Assembly (NCBI RefSeq): GCF_001984155.1
Contig: NZ_MTQO01000054.1
Coordinates: 248,001 to 312,000, forward strand
DNA length: 64,000 nt
Origin: Actinosynnema sp. ALI-1.44
Lineage (GTDB): Bacteria; Actinomycetota; Actinomycetes; Mycobacteriales; Pseudonocardiaceae
Direction: 5' to 3'
Shown: one piece after another, positions 39,748-57,014 of the stretch
Position numbering within the stretch: the stretch's first letter is position 1
Layout: every line of letters begins with the position of its first letter
Notes under the pieces: generated by a model
The model's database searches: none
What the model was told of the DNA's origin: nothing
Seen by the model: the letters and a program-made list of their open reading frames with translations, nothing else
Made by a program: the position numbers and the translations under genes

Positions 39748-41661
39748 GTGGACCTGAACTTCTCGTCCTGGATGGCGATGGAGAGCGCCATGCAGGAAGG
39801 GGGCAAACGGATCGGCCGGGCGACTGTCCGCCGGATCATCCGGTTCGCCCGGCCGCTGCGCGGCGCCGTGCTGGCGTTGCTGCTGTTGAGCGCCGTTTCC
39901 GCGGTGCTCGCCGTTGCCACGCCCGTGATCGCGGGGCGGGTGGTGGACGCGATCATGAACAAGGAGGACAGCGGCATCGTCGTCACCCTCGCGCTGGTGA
40001 TCGCCGCGATCGCGATCGTCGACGCGGTGGTCGGCATCGTCGAGCGCTGGCGGTCGGCGAGTGTCGGCGAGGAGCTCATCCTCCGACTGCGGCAGGCGGT
40101 GTTCGACCACGTGCAGCGGATGCCGGTCGCCTTCTTCACCCGAACGAGGACAGGCGCCCTCGTCAGCAGGTTGAACAACGACGTGATCGCCGCGCAGCGC
40201 GCGTTCACGATGACACTGTCCATGGTCACCAACAACATCATCGCGCTCGTGCTGACGCTCGTCGTGATGATCGCCCTGTCGTGGCAGATCACCCTGCTGG
40301 CGTTGATCCTGCTGCCGATCTTCTACCTGCCCGCACGGCGGATGGGCCGCAGGCTGGCCGGGATGGAACGCGAGGCGGCCGAGCACAACGCGGCGATGAC
40401 AACCCAGATGACCGAGCGGTTCTCCGCCCCCGGTGCCACCCTGATCAAGCTGTTCGGCCGCCCGCAGGACGAGTCGAACGAGTTCGGCAGGCGCGCTCGC
40501 CGCGTGCGGGACATCGGCGTGCGCGCGGCGGTGAACCAATGGTTCTTCATGACCGCGCTGTCGCTGGTCTCCGCACTGGCGTTGGCATTGGTGTACGGCC
40601 TCGGCGGATACCTGTCCCTGGAAGGACAGCTGGACGCGGGCACGGTGGTCACCCTCGCGCTGTTGCTGACCAGGCTCTACCAACCGCTGACCGGCCTGGC
40701 CAACGCGCGTGTGGACGTGATGACCGCGTTGGTCAGCTTCGAGCGCGTCTTCGAGGTGCTCGACCTGCAGCCGTTGATCAAGGAGAAGCCGGACGCGCGG
40801 CAGGTGCCGGACGGCCCGGTCTCGGTGGAGTTCGACAACGTGAACTTCTCCTACCCGGCGGCGGACAAGGTGTCGTTGGCTTCCCTCGAGGAAGTGGCAG
40901 CGCTGGACAGCCGTGGCGGCGAACAAGTGCTGCACGGGATCTCCTTCCGCGCGGAACCAGGCCAGTTGGTCGCCCTGGTCGGCTCGTCGGGTGCGGGCAA
41001 GTCGACCATCGCGTCCCTCGCGCCCCGGCTCTACGACGTGGACTCCGGCGCCATCCGACTGTCCGGAGTGGACGTCAAGGACCTGTCCTTCACCTCGATC
41101 CGCGACGCCATGGGCCTGGTGACCCAGGACGGCCACCTGTTCCACGAGTCGATCGGCGACAACCTCCGCCTGGCCCGGCCCACAGCGGCAGACGAGGAAC
41201 TCTGGGACGCGCTCACCCACGCACGCCTGGCGGACCTGGTCCGCTCCTTGCCGGACCAGTTGGACACAGTCGTCGGCGAACGCGGATACCGCCTCTCCGG
41301 CGGCGAACGCCAACGACTGACCATCGCCCGCCTCCTGCTGGCCAACCCCCGTGTGGTGATCCTCGACGAAGCCACCGCCCACCTGGACTCGTCATCGGAA
41401 GCAGCGGTCCAGGAAGCACTGGGAGAAGCCCTGGCAGGCCGAACAGCACTGGTCATCGCCCACCGCCTGTCCACAGTCCGAGCAGCAGACCTGATCCTGG
41501 TCATCGAAGCAGGCCGCACGGTAGAACGCGGAACCCACGAAGAACTGCTGGCAGCCAACGGCCGCTACGCGGAGCTCTACCGAACCCAATTCGACGACCG
41601 CCCCAACCAAAACAACACCCACACCCACAACCGAGCCCCGCAGCCAGCCGACGCGCAATAA
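39748..41661 (+). CDS. ABC exporter, fused permease and ATPase
   Basis: GTG at 39748 with GGGGAGAG upstream gives 637 residues. Six transmembrane helices lie in about residues 30-320 and the ATPase domain in 360-600. Motifs are VGSSGAGKST (Walker A), LSGGERQR (signature), VVILDEATAHLD (Walker B) and the H-loop AHRLST. It is a half-transporter that should dimerise and export a lipid or drug-like substrate. A SoxR-like palindrome upstream suggests induction by redox-active compounds. The last 20 residues are Asn/His/Pro-rich and divergent. Confidence 0.92.
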   Translation: MDLNFSSWMAMESAMQEGGKRIGRATVRRIIRFARPLRGAVLALLLLSAVSAVLAVATPVIAGRVVDAIMNKEDSGIVVTLALVIAAIAIVDAVVGIVERWRSASVGEELILRLRQAVFDHVQRMPVAFFTRTRTGALVSRLNNDVIAAQRAFTMTLSMVTNNIIALVLTLVVMIALSWQITLLALILLPIFYLPARRMGRRLAGMEREAAEHNAAMTTQMTERFSAPGATLIKLFGRPQDESNEFGRRARRVRDIGVRAAVNQWFFMTALSLVSALALALVYGLGGYLSLEGQLDAGTVVTLALLLTRLYQPLTGLANARVDVMTALVSFERVFEVLDLQPLIKEKPDARQVPDGPVSVEFDNVNFSYPAADKVSLASLEEVAALDSRGGEQVLHGISFRAEPGQLVALVGSSGAGKSTIASLAPRLYDVDSGAIRLSGVDVKDLSFTSIRDAMGLVTQDGHLFHESIGDNLRLARPTAADEELWDALTHARLADLVRSLPDQLDTVVGERGYRLSGGERQRLTIARLLLANPRVVILDEATAHLDSSSEAAVQEALGEALAGRTALVIAHRLSTVRAADLILVIEAGRTVERGTHEELLAANGRYAELYRTQFDDRPNQNNTHTHNRAPQPADAQ

Positions 41662-42194
41662 ATGCCCCCGCAACGCGCTACTGCGAGGTCTGGCCGGGGT
41701 ATGAGGTGCAGAGGTATGGACAGGTGGGCGGTTGCGTAGGTCAACAGCGGATCGGCGAACTCGCCGACTCCACCACTGAACTCGCCATGCCCAGCCACGT
41801 CTACGCAGTGTGGGTCAGGACAGACAAGGTTGCGGCTCGCAGGCAAGCGGAGAGCACCAGCAGCCCAGCCGTGGTCGGCGAGCCTTCGGCGTGGTGCTGG
41901 AGATCTTGGGGGACGCCGGTCAGGCGAACCCGCAGGGCAGGGCAGGCGGCTCGCGCGCAAGCGCAGGGCGGGTGGCTCGCGCGCCAGCGCGGGGGTTTGC
42001 GGCTTGCGCGGAAGCTTGCACCTCGTGAGTGTTCACGCGGGTTAGAACCCAAGCCCGCGTAAACACTCACGAGGTGTTTCGGCCTGCGCGCAAGCGCAGG
42101 GGTTTGCGGCCGCGCGCAAGCGCAGGGGGTTGCGGCCGCGCGCAAGCGCAGGGGGTTGCGGCCGCGCCAGCGCAGAGCAACCCGCAACGGCTAG
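41662..42194. repeat. Gene-free stretch with GCGCAAGCGC-type repeats and a long hairpin
   Basis: No convincing gene is present; open frames on both strands are Arg/Pro/Ala-rich artefacts. From about 41935 the sequence is a mosaic of short palindromic units based on GCGCGCAAGCGCAGGG and TTGCGGC. Three near-identical ~31-base units lie at about 42080-42180. At 42019-42076 a 23-bp inverted repeat, with one G-U mismatch, has arms starting CACCTCGTGAGTGTT; it could act as a terminator. The stretch leads straight into the large inverted-repeat element. Confidence 0.6.
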
Positions 42195-42817
42195 CGCGCA
42201 AGCGCAGGGGTGGGCTTCGGGGGTGTCTCCTGCCCGTCGGCCTGGGCGAAGCCAACCACGGGCTGTCAGGAGGTCGGCCTGCCCAAGGAGCCCCGGCGAC
42301 AGCCATACCGATCCTCTTGATAGTCCGTGGTTCCCTGGGGCAGGTCGACGGGCAGGAGGCGCCCGCGCCTCGGGTACACACCACAGGATCTCGGCTTGGG
42401 CAGGGAGTACACCCACCCCATCTCCTGCTTTGAGGTCTGCCACCCGGCGAGGGGCTATCTTTTCCCCCGCAGGATCCCGAGCCTTGACCAGGAGTAAGGC
42501 GTGGTCACCCGACCCGGAACTGGAGATTCCGGGTCTGAAAAGACAAAAAGAAGGGGTCCCTCGCCGGGAGGCAGACCTCTGAGCAGGAGGTCTTCGCGCC
42601 GTGTTCCTCCCGGCGCATGTTTTTATGTCCCGGGGTTTCAGGGCGCGGGTGTCCCCTGCCCGTCGACCTGCCCCAGGGAACCACGGACTATCAAGAGGAT
42701 CGGTATGGCTGTCGCTGGGGCTCTTTGGGCAGGCCGACCTCTTGACAGCCCGTGGTTGGCTTCGCCCAGGCCGACGGGCAGGAGACACCCCCGAAGCACC
42801 ACTCTGCGCTAGCGCGC
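42195..42817. mobile_element. Non-coding element with ~160-175-bp terminal inverted repeats (copy A)
   Basis: The left arm (about 42195-42369) is nearly the reverse complement of the right arm (about 42642-42817); only a few mismatches are seen over ~155 bases. Inside, a second pair of arms (about 42432-42453 and 42558-42579, GAGGTCTGC / GCAGACCTC) forms a nested palindrome, and GACCCGGAA/TTCCGGGTC makes another hairpin at about 42509-42533. No transposase or convincing ORF is inside. A second copy lies at 56289-56920 in the same orientation. The element sits between the convergent ABC exporter and SNF2 genes. A MITE-like non-autonomous element is the best reading. Confidence 0.8.
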
Positions 42818-43007
42818 GGCTGACTTGGGTTGGCGGTCGTCTTGCCCTTGCGTTCGGAGAGTAGGCCACGCGCTTGCTCGCGCAGCCGCACACTCCGCTG
42901 CTTGGCTGCGGGTCGCCTACTCTGGCCGTGCTGGCCGGGGTTGAGGCGAGGGGTGTGCATGTTCATCAAGATCCGGTTGGACCTGTCTTTGCCGGGCATT
43001 TTTCGCG

Positions 43008-45818
43008 TTAGGAGAGCAGTTCGCGGATGTCTTCGGCGGTCAGGCTCGCGCCGAACATGTCTCCCTCGTCCAGCACGCTGGTGAAGAGTTCTGCTTTCTT
43101 TGCCTTCAGTGCCATCACTTTCTCTTCTATCGTGTCTTTCGCTATCAGGCGGTAGACCAGCACTGTCTTCGACTGGCCGATTCGGTGGGTGCGGTCGACT
43201 GCCTGTGCTTCCGTCGCTGGGTTCCACCATGGGTCGAGGAGGAAGCAGTAGTCGGCTTCGGTCAGGTTCAGGCCGAATCCGCCTGCTTTGAGGCTGATCA
43301 GGAATACGGGGGCCGTGCCGTTCTTGAACCGTTGGATTACCTTGTCGCGGTCGCGTGTCGAGCCGTCCAGGTAGCAGTACGGGATGTCCAGGCGGGACCG
43401 CACTATGTCCAGGAAGGTGGTGAACTGGCTGAACACCAGCGCGCGGTGTCCACCTGCGACGACGTCGTGCACTTGGTCGAGCAGTGCGTCGATCTTCGCG
43501 CACGGGAGGTCGCTGTGTTCTTCGTCGATCAGTGCGGGGTGCAGGCTCAGTTGTCTCAGCATCGTCAGCGACCGGAAGATGGTGAACCGGTTGGTGTTCA
43601 TGTCCCTGACCATGCCGAGGATTCGTAGGCGTTCTCGTTGCAGGTGGGTTTGGTAGACCTTGCGGTGCTTGGGGTGCAGTTCGACGTGCAGCACCTGTTC
43701 CTGCTTCGGTGGCAGGTCTGTCGCCACCTGGTCCTTGGTCCGGCGTTTCACCAGTGGGCGGATTCTGCGCCGGAGTTGTGCCAGTAGGCCGGGTTCTCCG
43801 GTTCGTTCGATCCTTCGCGCGTAGTACTGCTGGAACCGCACGGGACTGGGGAACAGGCCCGGCGCGGTGATCGACAGCAGCGACCACAGCTCCATCAGGT
43901 TGTTCTCCATCGGCGTGCCTGTGATCGCCAGTTTGAACGGCGCGGGCATGCGCCTGGCGCACTGGTGCACCTTCGACTGGTGGTTCTTGACCACCTGCGC
44001 CTCGTCGAGCACCATCCCCGCCCACTTGATCTTCGAGTAACGGTCGAAGTCCAGGCGCATCAAGGTGTACGACGTCAGTACGATGTCCGCTCCGGCGATG
44101 AGCGCGGGCAAGTCCTTGTGCCGCAGTGTGTCCGAGATGGTCACCACGCGCAGCTCTGGCGCGAACCGGGCTGCCTCGGCCTGCCACGTTGTCACCACGC
44201 TGGTCGGCGCCACTACGAGGAACGGCGTGTCGGTTTTGGCGTGGCAGATGAGGGCGAGTGTTTGCAGGGTTTTGCCGAGGCCCATGTCGTCGGCCAGGAT
44301 GCCGCCGAGGTCGTTCTCCCACAGGAAGGCCAGCCAGCGGAACCCGTCCAGCTGGTACGGCCGCAACCGGGCGTCCAGCGACTCGGGCACGTCGTACTCC
44401 GGCACCTCGTCCAGCAAGCCGCCGACCTGCTTGCGCCACGCGCCCGCCTGGTGGTCGACCACGCCGATGTTGACCAGGTCGTCCCACAGTCCCGCCTGGA
44501 AGCGGCTGATCCGCAACGAGTCGCTCCGCTGGTCGAGCAACCCGCGGGCTTCGACGATCAGCTTGTGCAACGTCCGCAGTTCCGGCTTCTGCAGGGAGAA
44601 GTAGGCGCCGTCCGGCAACAGCAGGTACGTCTCGTCCCTGGTCAGCGCCAGGAAGACGTCCATGAACGGCACCGTGCGCCCGTCGACGGTGATCGTCACG
44701 GTCAGGTCGAACCAGTCCGTCTTCCCCGGCGTGTCCGAAGTAGACAAGCCGATCCGGACCACGCTCGCCTCGCGGTAGTCCGGCCGCACACCGATGACCT
44801 CGACCTCGACGCCCGGCAGTTCGTCGAACCGGGCCAGCTCCTCCGTGGTGAACCGCATGGTATCCACGTCCCGCAGCGTTGTCGCCACGGGTTTCCGGGG
44901 CAGTCGGGCCAGGATCTCGCGTTCGGCGTCCGGGTCGCGGTAGGCCTCCGGCTCCGCGTCCAGCGCCGCGTGGAGCTCGGACGTGCCGATCCGGTAGAGC
45001 CATTCCCAGTCCAGGTCCAGCTCGTGGTCGTTGCGGTAGGCCGCGTTCAGCCGCAGCACCGGCCCGGAGATCGTCGGCGGGGCGAACGAGCCGTCCGACG
45101 ACACGAACTGGGCGGTGTGCCGCAGCCGGGGGTAGTAGCGGTTGACGAACCGGTCCCGCTCCGAAACGGGGATCTGCAGCCTGTGCTCGCCGACAACCAT
45201 GTCCTGCAAGGACTCCGGCGCGGGCTGGGCAAGCTTCGCCAGCCCGATCCGGCACTCGTCGGCCGCCCCGGTCTCGTCGAGCTCCTCCTGGCTGACGTAC
45301 ACAAGGCCGTGTCCCGCGCCGAGGAACCGCACAGCGGACGCCGGGCCTTGCCCTTCCACGCGGATGACCGGGGTGACGAGCAGACCGGCGTCACTGGTCA
45401 CGTCCAGGCACAGTTCGGCGGGGTGGAAGTCGGCGTTGACCAGGGTGACGCCGACGCGCACCGCCTCGTCCAGCAGGGCCCACAGGTGCCGGGTGTCGAA
45501 CCGGGCGAGGTCGATCATCTTGTCGTCACGGGGGATCATGTCCTGCGCCTGGTAGACCGCGTGGATCTCGCGCAGGACACGGACGTGTGCGGCAGCATAG
45601 CCCTCGAACGGGGTCAGCCTGCCCCAGCTCACACCGCCGCTGACCCAGCCGCTGCGGCCCTGCCGCACCAGTTTCGCGAAGACGGTGGGGCCTGAGCTGC
45701 GGGCGCGCGAGAGCAACGGCTCCGTCGCCAGTGTCAGCTCGATGCCCAGCGGCGCACCACCCTGCTCGGCGTCCGGGCTGAGCAGGGAGGTCAGTGACCG
45801 CTCCCAGTTCGATGGCAC
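43008..45818 (-). CDS. SNF2-family DNA helicase/ATPase
   Basis: GTG at 45818 gives 936 residues. The N-terminal ~470 residues are a region typical of bacterial SNF2 proteins that binds other factors. The ATPase core has ILADDMGLGKTLQTLAL (Walker A), LDEAQVVKN (DEAQ box), AITGTPMENNLMELWSLL, LVFSQFTTFLD and the C-terminal THRIGQ with GGFGLNLTEADY. It is a DNA translocase probably involved in DNA repair or RNA polymerase recycling; no nuclease domain is seen. It shares its upstream region with the divergent ArsR-fusion gene. Confidence 0.92.
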   Translation of the reverse strand: MPSNWERSLTSLLSPDAEQGGAPLGIELTLATEPLLSRARSSGPTVFAKLVRQGRSGWVSGGVSWGRLTPFEGYAAAHVRVLREIHAVYQAQDMIPRDDKMIDLARFDTRHLWALLDEAVRVGVTLVNADFHPAELCLDVTSDAGLLVTPVIRVEGQGPASAVRFLGAGHGLVYVSQEELDETGAADECRIGLAKLAQPAPESLQDMVVGEHRLQIPVSERDRFVNRYYPRLRHTAQFVSSDGSFAPPTISGPVLRLNAAYRNDHELDLDWEWLYRIGTSELHAALDAEPEAYRDPDAEREILARLPRKPVATTLRDVDTMRFTTEELARFDELPGVEVEVIGVRPDYREASVVRIGLSTSDTPGKTDWFDLTVTITVDGRTVPFMDVFLALTRDETYLLLPDGAYFSLQKPELRTLHKLIVEARGLLDQRSDSLRISRFQAGLWDDLVNIGVVDHQAGAWRKQVGGLLDEVPEYDVPESLDARLRPYQLDGFRWLAFLWENDLGGILADDMGLGKTLQTLALICHAKTDTPFLVVAPTSVVTTWQAEAARFAPELRVVTISDTLRHKDLPALIAGADIVLTSYTLMRLDFDRYSKIKWAGMVLDEAQVVKNHQSKVHQCARRMPAPFKLAITGTPMENNLMELWSLLSITAPGLFPSPVRFQQYYARRIERTGEPGLLAQLRRRIRPLVKRRTKDQVATDLPPKQEQVLHVELHPKHRKVYQTHLQRERLRILGMVRDMNTNRFTIFRSLTMLRQLSLHPALIDEEHSDLPCAKIDALLDQVHDVVAGGHRALVFSQFTTFLDIVRSRLDIPYCYLDGSTRDRDKVIQRFKNGTAPVFLISLKAGGFGLNLTEADYCFLLDPWWNPATEAQAVDRTHRIGQSKTVLVYRLIAKDTIEEKVMALKAKKAELFTSVLDEGDMFGASLTAEDIRELLS

Positions 45819-55929: not shown

Positions 55930-56288
55930 GTCCCCTGACACCGGCCACCCACGAAGAGCTCGGAATGGACAGCCGCGAAGCGTACCGCCGATGCCTGCCC
56001 GGCGGACCGTGGCCGAGTTCGTGCCGGGTAATCCTGCGCCTGCCGACTCAGCCGAGTGACAACCGGCGTGTGATCGGTGCGAGCGCCAGCTGACCATGGT
56101 TCCAGCCTCGGGCGCTTGAGAGTTACCAGCGCAGGCCAGCCTGGATCGGCTGGGTGCCAGCGCAGAGCAGCAGAAGCCGCAGCCAACCACACGCCAGAGC
56201 AGAGCAACCGCAGCCGGGCCTTGGCCGGGGAGTGGGCGAGGGTAGAGGGTTTGGGGCCTGAGCGCAAGCGCGGGGGTTTGCGGCTTGC
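55930..56288. other. Gene-free stretch before repeat copy B
   Basis: No gene is supported. The first half is unremarkable intergenic sequence. From about 56150 short CAGCGCAGAGCAGCAG-like and GAGCGCAAGCGC-like units appear, the same family of GC-rich words that flank copy A of the inverted-repeat element. Confidence 0.5.
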
Positions 56289-56920
56289 GCGCAAGCGCAG
56301 GGGTGGGCTTCGGGGGTGTCTCCTGCCCGTCGGCCTGGGCGAAGCCAACCACGGGCTGTCAAGAGGTCGGCCTGCTCAAGGAGGCCCGGCGATAGCGGTA
56401 CCGATCCTCTTGATAGTCCGTGGTTCCCTGGGGCAGGTCGACGGGCAGGAGACACCCTCGCCTCGGGTACACACAACAGGATCTTTGCTTTGGGTAGGGA
56501 GTACACCCATTCCATCTCCTGCCCAGAGGTCTGCTCCCGGCGAGGGGCTATCTTTCCCCCGCAGCATCCGAGCCTTGACCAGGAGTAAGGCGTGGTCACT
56601 AGACCCGCAATGGAGATCCTGGGTCTGAAAATACGAAAGACGAAAAGACGAAAGACGGACCCTCGCCGGGAGGCAGACCTCTGAGCAGGAGGTCTTCGCG
56701 CCGTGTTGCTCCCGGCGCACGCTTCAGTGACCCGGGGTTTCAGGGCGCGGGCGTCCCCTGCCCGTCGACCTGCCCCAGGGAACCACGGACTGTCAAGAGG
56801 ATCGGTATGGCTGTCGCTGGCGCTGGTTGTCGTGGGCCGACCTCTGGACAGCCCGTGGTTGGCTTCGCCCAGGCCGACGGGCAGGAGACACCCCCGAAGC
56901 CGACCTCTGCGCTTGCGCGC
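56289..56920. mobile_element. Non-coding element with long terminal inverted repeats (copy B)
   Basis: This copy aligns with 42195-42817 in the same orientation, roughly nine bases in ten by eye. The left arm is about 56289-56462, the right about 56744-56920; both contain GGGTGTCTCCTGCCCGTCGG or its complement. The inner palindrome (about 56526-56547 and 56660-56681) is conserved. The right arm has a block of differences near 56818-56842 where A differs too, without matching changes in the left arm. No ORF of substance lies inside. It sits between thpR and the DUF4383 gene, both forward. Confidence 0.8.
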
Positions 56921-57014
56921 GGCCTGGCAGTGGTGGGCTCGGCTTGCGCGCGGCCTGGCAGTGGTGGGCTCGGCTTGCGCGCGGCCTGGCAGTGGTTGGG
57001 CTCGGCTTGCGCCA
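56911..57014. repeat. 31-bp tandem repeat, about 3.3 units
   Basis: Units begin at 56911, 56942, 56973 and (partial, one base longer spacing) 57005 with GCTTGCGCGC followed by GGCCTGGCAGTGGTGGGCTC. The first unit overlaps the outer end of repeat copy B. There are no spacers between units, so it is a simple tandem array. Confidence 0.85.

Follow-up and report, generated by a model that had tools for sequence, protein, structure and literature searches.

Interspersed repeats in bacteria are usually tiny REPs or MITEs. In the IS200/IS605 family, a hairpin is recognized on one strand and a nearby guide, short at about 4 nt, pairs with a separate site. In one account (PMC3733652), REPs are given as 20–40 bp long with stems of 5–13 bp, CGTC-class REPs are likewise described without a dedicated transposase, and untagged REP-like families are named in M. 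tuberculosis; the same paper contains no occurrence of "Actinobacteria," Saccharopolyspora, Amycolatopsis, Actinosynnema, or Frankia.

Here we describe a large palindromic locus, copy A, from a window of Actinosynnema sp. ALI-1.44 (the window being the whole 64,000-nucleotide stretch of DNA that was analyzed). It resembles the GTAG- and CGTC-tagged REPs and BIMEs (PMC3733652) in being non-coding, palindromic, intergenic, and multicopy, often as dimers, and in having one asymmetric end; dimers of one unit are found both in its own genome (G000) and in G115. It differs in scale, the unit being about 260 bp long with two stems of 26 alignment pairs, followed by a further segment (A′) and a tail, and the preliminary description was right to set it apart from short REPs. 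It also differs from the GTAG class in having no RAYT (Y1) transposase in its own genome: the Y1 model PF01797 had no match in G000 (as a control, it matched in 5 of 14 genomes), and a RAYT-driven REP was rejected on this ground. With IS200/IS605 it may share recognition of a hairpin on one strand and guide-like pairing with a separate site, but its pairing segments A and A′ are about 16–20 nt long and no Y1 transposase accompanies them in the genome. Like MITEs and ERIC/YPAL-like repeats, it is non-autonomous, has long inverted arms, and lies near gene ends; unlike them, its unit also occurs singly with one outer end, the symmetry of the dimer is secondary, and no partner transposase was found. 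Attenuators also have one strand with two exclusive partners followed by a U run, whereas this element is dispersed and deletable and lies not in a leader but at the 3′ ends of genes that have no relation to one another.

Architecture of Copy A

Copy A has two arms (42194–42369 and 42642–42817), each 176 nt long and 94% complementary to the other, with 272 nt between them. An inner palindrome of 32 nt (42422–42453 with 42558–42589, 91%) is present, and each arm forms a hairpin on its own, with 27-nt stems. The nested palindrome with long arms and internal hairpins that had been noticed at the outset is therefore real. The 633 bases, modeled as single-stranded DNA, have a predicted folding energy of −319.4 kcal/mol, compared with −138.1 ± 7.2 kcal/mol for 20 dinucleotide shuffles (z −25). 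Mechanical ORFs of 128–283 aa, and the start of one 854-aa frame, cross or reach copy A. No gene was called between 41661 and 43008 by our own simple codon-composition gene finder, which supplied all gene calls used here, and the suggested lack of coding capacity holds in the sense that no gene is recognizable. Copy A lies between convergent genes, since an ABC transporter gene on the + strand ends at 41661 and an SNF2-type helicase gene on the − strand ends at 43008.

The preliminary description treated the ~620-bp palindrome as the element. The palindrome stands, but what repeats is its ~260-bp half, and the whole is an inverted dimer of that unit. Copy A and copy B, the second dimer of the window (about 56281–56923, 89% identical to copy A), are both tail-to-tail dimers of this unit, as follows from the existence of one-unit copies and from the central spacer that two-unit copies have in common. 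From the outer to the inner end, the unit consists of stem strand A, the long hairpin, A*, a linker, A′, a mini-hairpin that covaries and has the loop GGCGA, and a T run. The conserved tail and T run are found on one strand of each unit.

The left unit occupies 42216–42467 on the + strand. Within it, A, the 5′ strand of stem 1 (helix 1), is at 42222–42244 and is followed by a possible mini-hairpin, GGC-GAA-GCC, between the two stems (42245–42253), which RNAalifold also pairs (33–42 and 34–41). Stem 2 and its loop (42254–42332; 42254–42277 pairs with 42308–42332) precede A*, the 3′ strand of stem 1 (helix 1), at 42341–42363. A′, an imperfect copy of A and the alternative partner of A*, lies at 42421–42441, the tail CTGCC..CCGGCGAGG with its GGCGA-loop mini-hairpin at 42437–42452, and the T-rich run seen in the base profile at 42455–42467. 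The central spacer (42467–42549), similar in other dimers of the genome, leads to the right unit (42550–42796, − strand), with its T run at 42550–42558, tail at 42559–42574, A′ at 42570–42590, and stem 1 strands at 42647–42670 (A*) and 42767–42790 (A). The outer tips are CTGCGCTTGCGCGC on the left (42194–42207, − strand), an instance of the tip motif counted below, and CTGCGCTAGCGCGC on the right (42804–42817, + strand).

Two further features adjoin copy A. Arrays of 26-bp tandem repeats that contain the outer tip of the element (41937–41994 and 42076–42175) are of a kind seen beside many copies. A separate palindrome of 23 bp, 96% complementary, lies at 42019–42076; a 20-mer from it, searched in 405 fetched loci, was found only in 5 overlapping loci of the same place, and a microRNA match there, far below its gathering score, was taken as chance.

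Copies in the Genome

The genome G000 comprises 11.71 Mb in 54 contigs. A search of it gave 90 matches, with 40 of 102 candidates scored; these merged into at least 40 distinct places, and all 40 were fetched. The element is thus multicopy, and a recent duplication giving just two copies, the outcome that would have undone the preliminary description, was rejected. Copies take the form of two units (~600–680 bp), a single ~260-bp unit, or cut-off and deleted versions. The 50 annotated rows of this genome, which include deletion forms, divide into 24 with units in both orientations and 26 with units in a single orientation.

The outer tip CTGCGCTNGCGCGC occurs 97 times in the genome, against 8 for the reversed pattern, mostly at elements and in the adjoining 26-bp tandem arrays. 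When 13 isolated tips were read, 10 proved to be at units or remnants and 3 stood alone (L150, L155, and L161). No transposase was present among the six predicted proteins nearest to these lone tips, one of which had no family assignment; this search covered the exact tip motif.

Two Covarying Stems

Two stems of 26 pairs each are supported by 35 aligned hairpins, drawn from five genomes of the own genus. Pairing was preserved in 93.0% of 1781 cells, compared with 87.4% after shuffling and 37%–47% in slid controls, and both sides had changed in 77 cells (18.9 ± 3.9 when shuffled). G·T exceeded A·C on the outer-to-inner strand by 125 to 20 cells, or by 31 to 15 pair-columns (p = 0.026, with related sequences that are not independent). 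The outer-to-inner strand was also the better-folding one for all 53 hairpins of the own genome and for 41 of 54 related ones (94 of 107 in the genus). Outside the genus this was true of 11 of 19 hairpins, and the stems by themselves therefore do not give a general preference for one strand.

A′ as a Possible Competing Partner of A*

A′ lies directly before the tail and is an imperfect copy of A, the 5′ strand of stem 1, over about 16–20 nt. An A/A′ pair from the own genus is CCTGCCCGTCGGCCTG/CCTGCCCGGAGGTCTG; others are TCATCCCGCCGACCTG/TCATCCTGCTGATCTG, CTGCTTCGACGGCCTG/CTGCTTTGATGGTCTG, and GTCATCCCGTCGCCTG/GTCATCCCGGAGCCTG. In 115 nonredundant units of 232, a set that includes some coding false positives, A′ scored 10.2 (SD 2.1) when matched to its own hairpin, 7.8 with those of other lineages, and 7.4 with shuffled sequence. 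Predicted A′:A* duplexes followed the same order, with means of −34.5, −31.4, and −30.8 kcal/mol, respectively. For the median unit, 11% of the hairpins of other lineages matched A′ as well as its own did.

An anchored alignment was obtained for 148 of the 232 units and gave 40 distinct cores, 30 of which align to A; the other 10, all from the own genus, align to stem 2. In the 30 A-type cores, 36 transitions keep A′:A* pairing and 5 break it (p = 8 × 10⁻⁷), alongside 59 transversions. The 10 stem-2 cores, with 8 keeping and 10 breaking transitions, have no wobble bias. When A of the window unit was held unpaired, a refold to A*:A′ was predicted (−116 versus −147 kcal/mol). Because A′ resembles A imperfectly and follows it from lineage to lineage as the sequence changes, A and A′ can compete for A*. 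The possibility of this competition is conserved, and the element may make use of it.

The Tail and T Run

The tail was absent from the hairpin search model, and CTGCC..CCGGCGAGG was nonetheless found 15–71 nt downstream, on the same strand, of 17 of the 19 hairpins beyond the genus when up to 200 nt were allowed; the same 466 kb of strand held only two other tail hits. In copy-rich genomes the tail greatly outnumbered the reversed pattern, with counts of 117/4 in G142, 117/20 in G115, 78/1 in G218, 61/0 in G085, 54/2 in G028, and 45/0 in the own genome. Every one of the 200 family genomes had some match, and many had few, at counts closer to the control. Dimers recur in another genus, since the 18 places listed for G115 include 7 facing pairs of tails, 66–95 bp apart.

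The tail pairs next to CC-GGCGA-GG were formed in 185 and 155 of 188 cases (120 and 95 expected), whereas pairs 3 and 4 were at expectation (36 and 31 versus 36 and 34). In the profile of 186 distinct tails, the T fraction peaks at 0.77 at 4–10 nt after the tail, where A is at 0.03. A crude cut of 32 hairpin pairs, which lets in coding false positives, was passed by 83 of 131 tails, 6 more being skipped at edges. The tail 19-mer also had 8 exact matches in viral contigs, two of which (L401 and L405) passed this cut; by eye they have neither A′ nor a T run and were rejected as family copies.

Spread across the Family

A covariance model built for the 150-nt hairpin matched in all 8 genomes of the own genus and, with these included, in 51 of 200 family genomes and 18 of 46 genera, a count made with strict filters at which weak matches are lost. 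Hits per genome are overcounted, because the model also matches the reverse strand. One genome of the genus, G006, was missed by blastn and found by the model. At E 1e-6 in 394 genomes of the class, the only match was the own genome. Among the matches listed (at least 120 stretches), a scan with the tail pattern recovered Saccharothrix, Amycolatopsis, Saccharomonospora, Prauserella, Pseudonocardia, and Thermocrispum; its hits in other phyla look like chance.

Gain, Loss, and Decay at Individual Sites

At site A, G002 has its own dimer, 71% identical to copy A. No unit match was present in the orthologous stretches of G001, G003, G004, G006, and G007, and in G005 one flank was found. The gap of G001 at this site (L112, G001:C1:953236–953966) is occupied by another tandem array, TTGCGGCACCTTGAGATGCGC-like. 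The preliminary description proposed to look for empty sites. Copy B is absent from five relatives: its flanks are directly joined in G001, G003, G004, and G007, and it is missing in G002. G006 has 1.15 kb there without a unit match. Around copy B, a degenerate direct repeat of ~15 bp encloses ~1.17 kb, a span larger than the element, and the target duplication that had been sought could not be read cleanly. Another 14 syntenic sites were compared in G002. A fragment or more is present at 9 of them, 28 bp long in one case, and the other 5 have no unit match; at some of these five (e.g., L174), G002 has other DNA and no clean empty site. Most of the sites examined are thus shared with G002 in some form, which points to slow movement.

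Many copies have lost the hairpin, and A/A′ is the most exact place of loss. At L041 and L003, G002 has a hairpin-less form of 65 bp, joined at a 9-bp A/A′ repeat, GGGCAGGAG; other hairpin deletions have different junctions. The exact 65-bp form occurs 3 times in G000, 7 times in G002, and not at all in six other genomes of the genus. We considered this form as an ancestral target; because it is rare and lineage-typed, deletion at GGGCAGGAG would be the simpler account.

At five shared sites, all seven hairpins are nearer to their paralogs (0.95–0.99) than to the best orthologous unit (0.82–0.93); L164/L132 was left out since its homologous flank is 8 kb from the unit. Copies are accordingly homogenized or replaced within a genome, and gene conversion by itself could homogenize them. 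At L157, no copy in G002 is nearer than the ortholog (0.93).

Gene Context

Across all genera, 70 of 149 unit contexts are convergent and 7 are divergent, both units of a dimer being counted. These contexts came from the 186 distinct tails, after 10 inside a predicted gene and 27 without a neighbor were dropped. In stretches not chosen for the element, background gaps of at least 60 bp are convergent in 12 and divergent in 36 of 107 cases. With gaps of at least 250 bp (6 and 15 of 32), the excess of convergent contexts shrinks but persists (p = 0.003). The genus sets gave 39 convergent and 4 divergent among 73 contexts (73 of 85 rows). Single units between codirectional genes have no orientation bias (30 versus 22, p = 0.33).

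The neighbors are not constant, and two candidate partners were set aside for this reason. Three genomes belonging to two genera have the same acetyltransferase gene beside the element's inner end (L226, L228, and L230; the domain was checked in L226). A phage-integrase domain, PF00589, lies near the hairpin in two family genomes (L225:5239–6057 and L240:5502–5786, the latter below the curated cut-off).

Searches for a Known Family or Enzyme

No Rfam model matches over the element, and neither an Rfam identity nor the concern that copy A belongs to a described RNA family was upheld. In the window at 41500–43500 the single Rfam match (E 0.0009, far below gathering) lies outside the element, and in nine family loci the only one was an unrelated SAM-IV riboswitch (L340:308–422, a Saccharothrix record). 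The matching transposase that the preliminary description proposed to look for did not emerge, either with PF01797 in the genome or beside the lone exact tips. A plasmid or phage origin was rejected, as the right unit had no match in plasmid and phage collections at blastn sensitivity. A literature search of listings and the openings of abstracts yielded no paper that we recognized as describing the element, and the text of a Saccharothrix genome paper contains neither "repeat" nor "palindrom."

Possible Nature of the Element

On balance, we think it somewhat probable that copy A consists of two units of a Pseudonocardiaceae element that is interspersed and non-autonomous, undergoes selection as one folded strand, and is moved by a factor in trans. 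Selection would act on the element as one strand folded from outer to inner end, because only copies able to fold would be propagated, whereas the host could do without any single copy. The many sites at which copies are lost or absent speak against a need of the host for individual copies. The fold, the tail, and A/A′, by contrast, have been kept from genus to genus, and selection acting on the element itself, with a single folded strand as its natural target, is the best fit. An enzyme supplied in trans would probably act on the folded strand, DNA or RNA, and A* would pair either with A, in the long hairpin, or with A′ beside the tail, like a guide and its site. Convergent placement would most likely reflect the removal of insertions near promoters. 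A narrower proposal, which we hold to be unlikely, is that of a new kind of guide-directed single-strand element whose hairpin module, with A* as its address, homes into or leaves tail modules bearing A′. Such homing would explain the A/A′ tracking, the hairpin-less forms joined exactly at A/A′, and the own sequence type at shared sites.

The T run and the genomic position make a dispersed RNA 3′-end element a serious rival. Flanking transcripts would enter from the outer side, A:A* and A*:A′ would be mutually exclusive, the tail and U run would end or process the RNA, and dimers would serve two convergent genes. The T run 4–10 nt after the 186 distinct tails would, together with the tail, suit this role equally, and the convergent excess over background (70 of 149 versus 12 of 107; divergent, 7 of 149 versus 36 of 107) agrees with it, as do the A-to-A′ transitions that keep G·U pairing with A* (36 versus 5) and the predicted switch to A*:A′ when A is held unpaired. 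However, orthologous sites may lack the copy or have a deleted form of it, single units between codirectional genes have no orientation bias, the tail stem is only 4 bp, the 149 contexts include both units of a dimer, and the two terminator-like sites of 41600–43100, one of them in the element, compare with 1.1 in shuffles. We regard this reading as rather doubtful, although mobility, which we favor slightly, and a role in RNA may both hold. The long inverted ends, the interspersed and intergenic distribution, the spacer common to dimers, and the lack of a recognizable gene would also fit a classical MITE, in which the dimer's long inverted ends would be recognized and cut by a DDE transposase. 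We hold this to be very unlikely: single-orientation copies are common (26 of the 50 rows), 10 of 13 isolated tips are at units or remnants, the three lone ones have no transposase among the six nearest predicted proteins, and no clean target duplication could be read at copy B. It is similarly improbable that the element is a passive structured repeat, spread and homogenized only by recombination and under no present selection: most examined sites are common with G002, copies are alike within genomes, and decay is seen, but compensatory changes, tail covariation, and A/A′ tracking persist across genera.

A large structured unit without a recognizable gene has thus kept its fold and a competing partner over several genera despite sequence change. 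This makes two questions testable, namely by what agent palindromic repeats lacking a known enzyme are moved, and whether elements scattered through a genome can serve as RNA 3′ ends that switch.

Assembly breaks were observed in or near copies at the starts of G000 contigs C26, C35, C36, C46, and C51 and at the ends of C12, C14, and C34. In these antibiotic producers, the element may explain where genome assemblies break into contigs.
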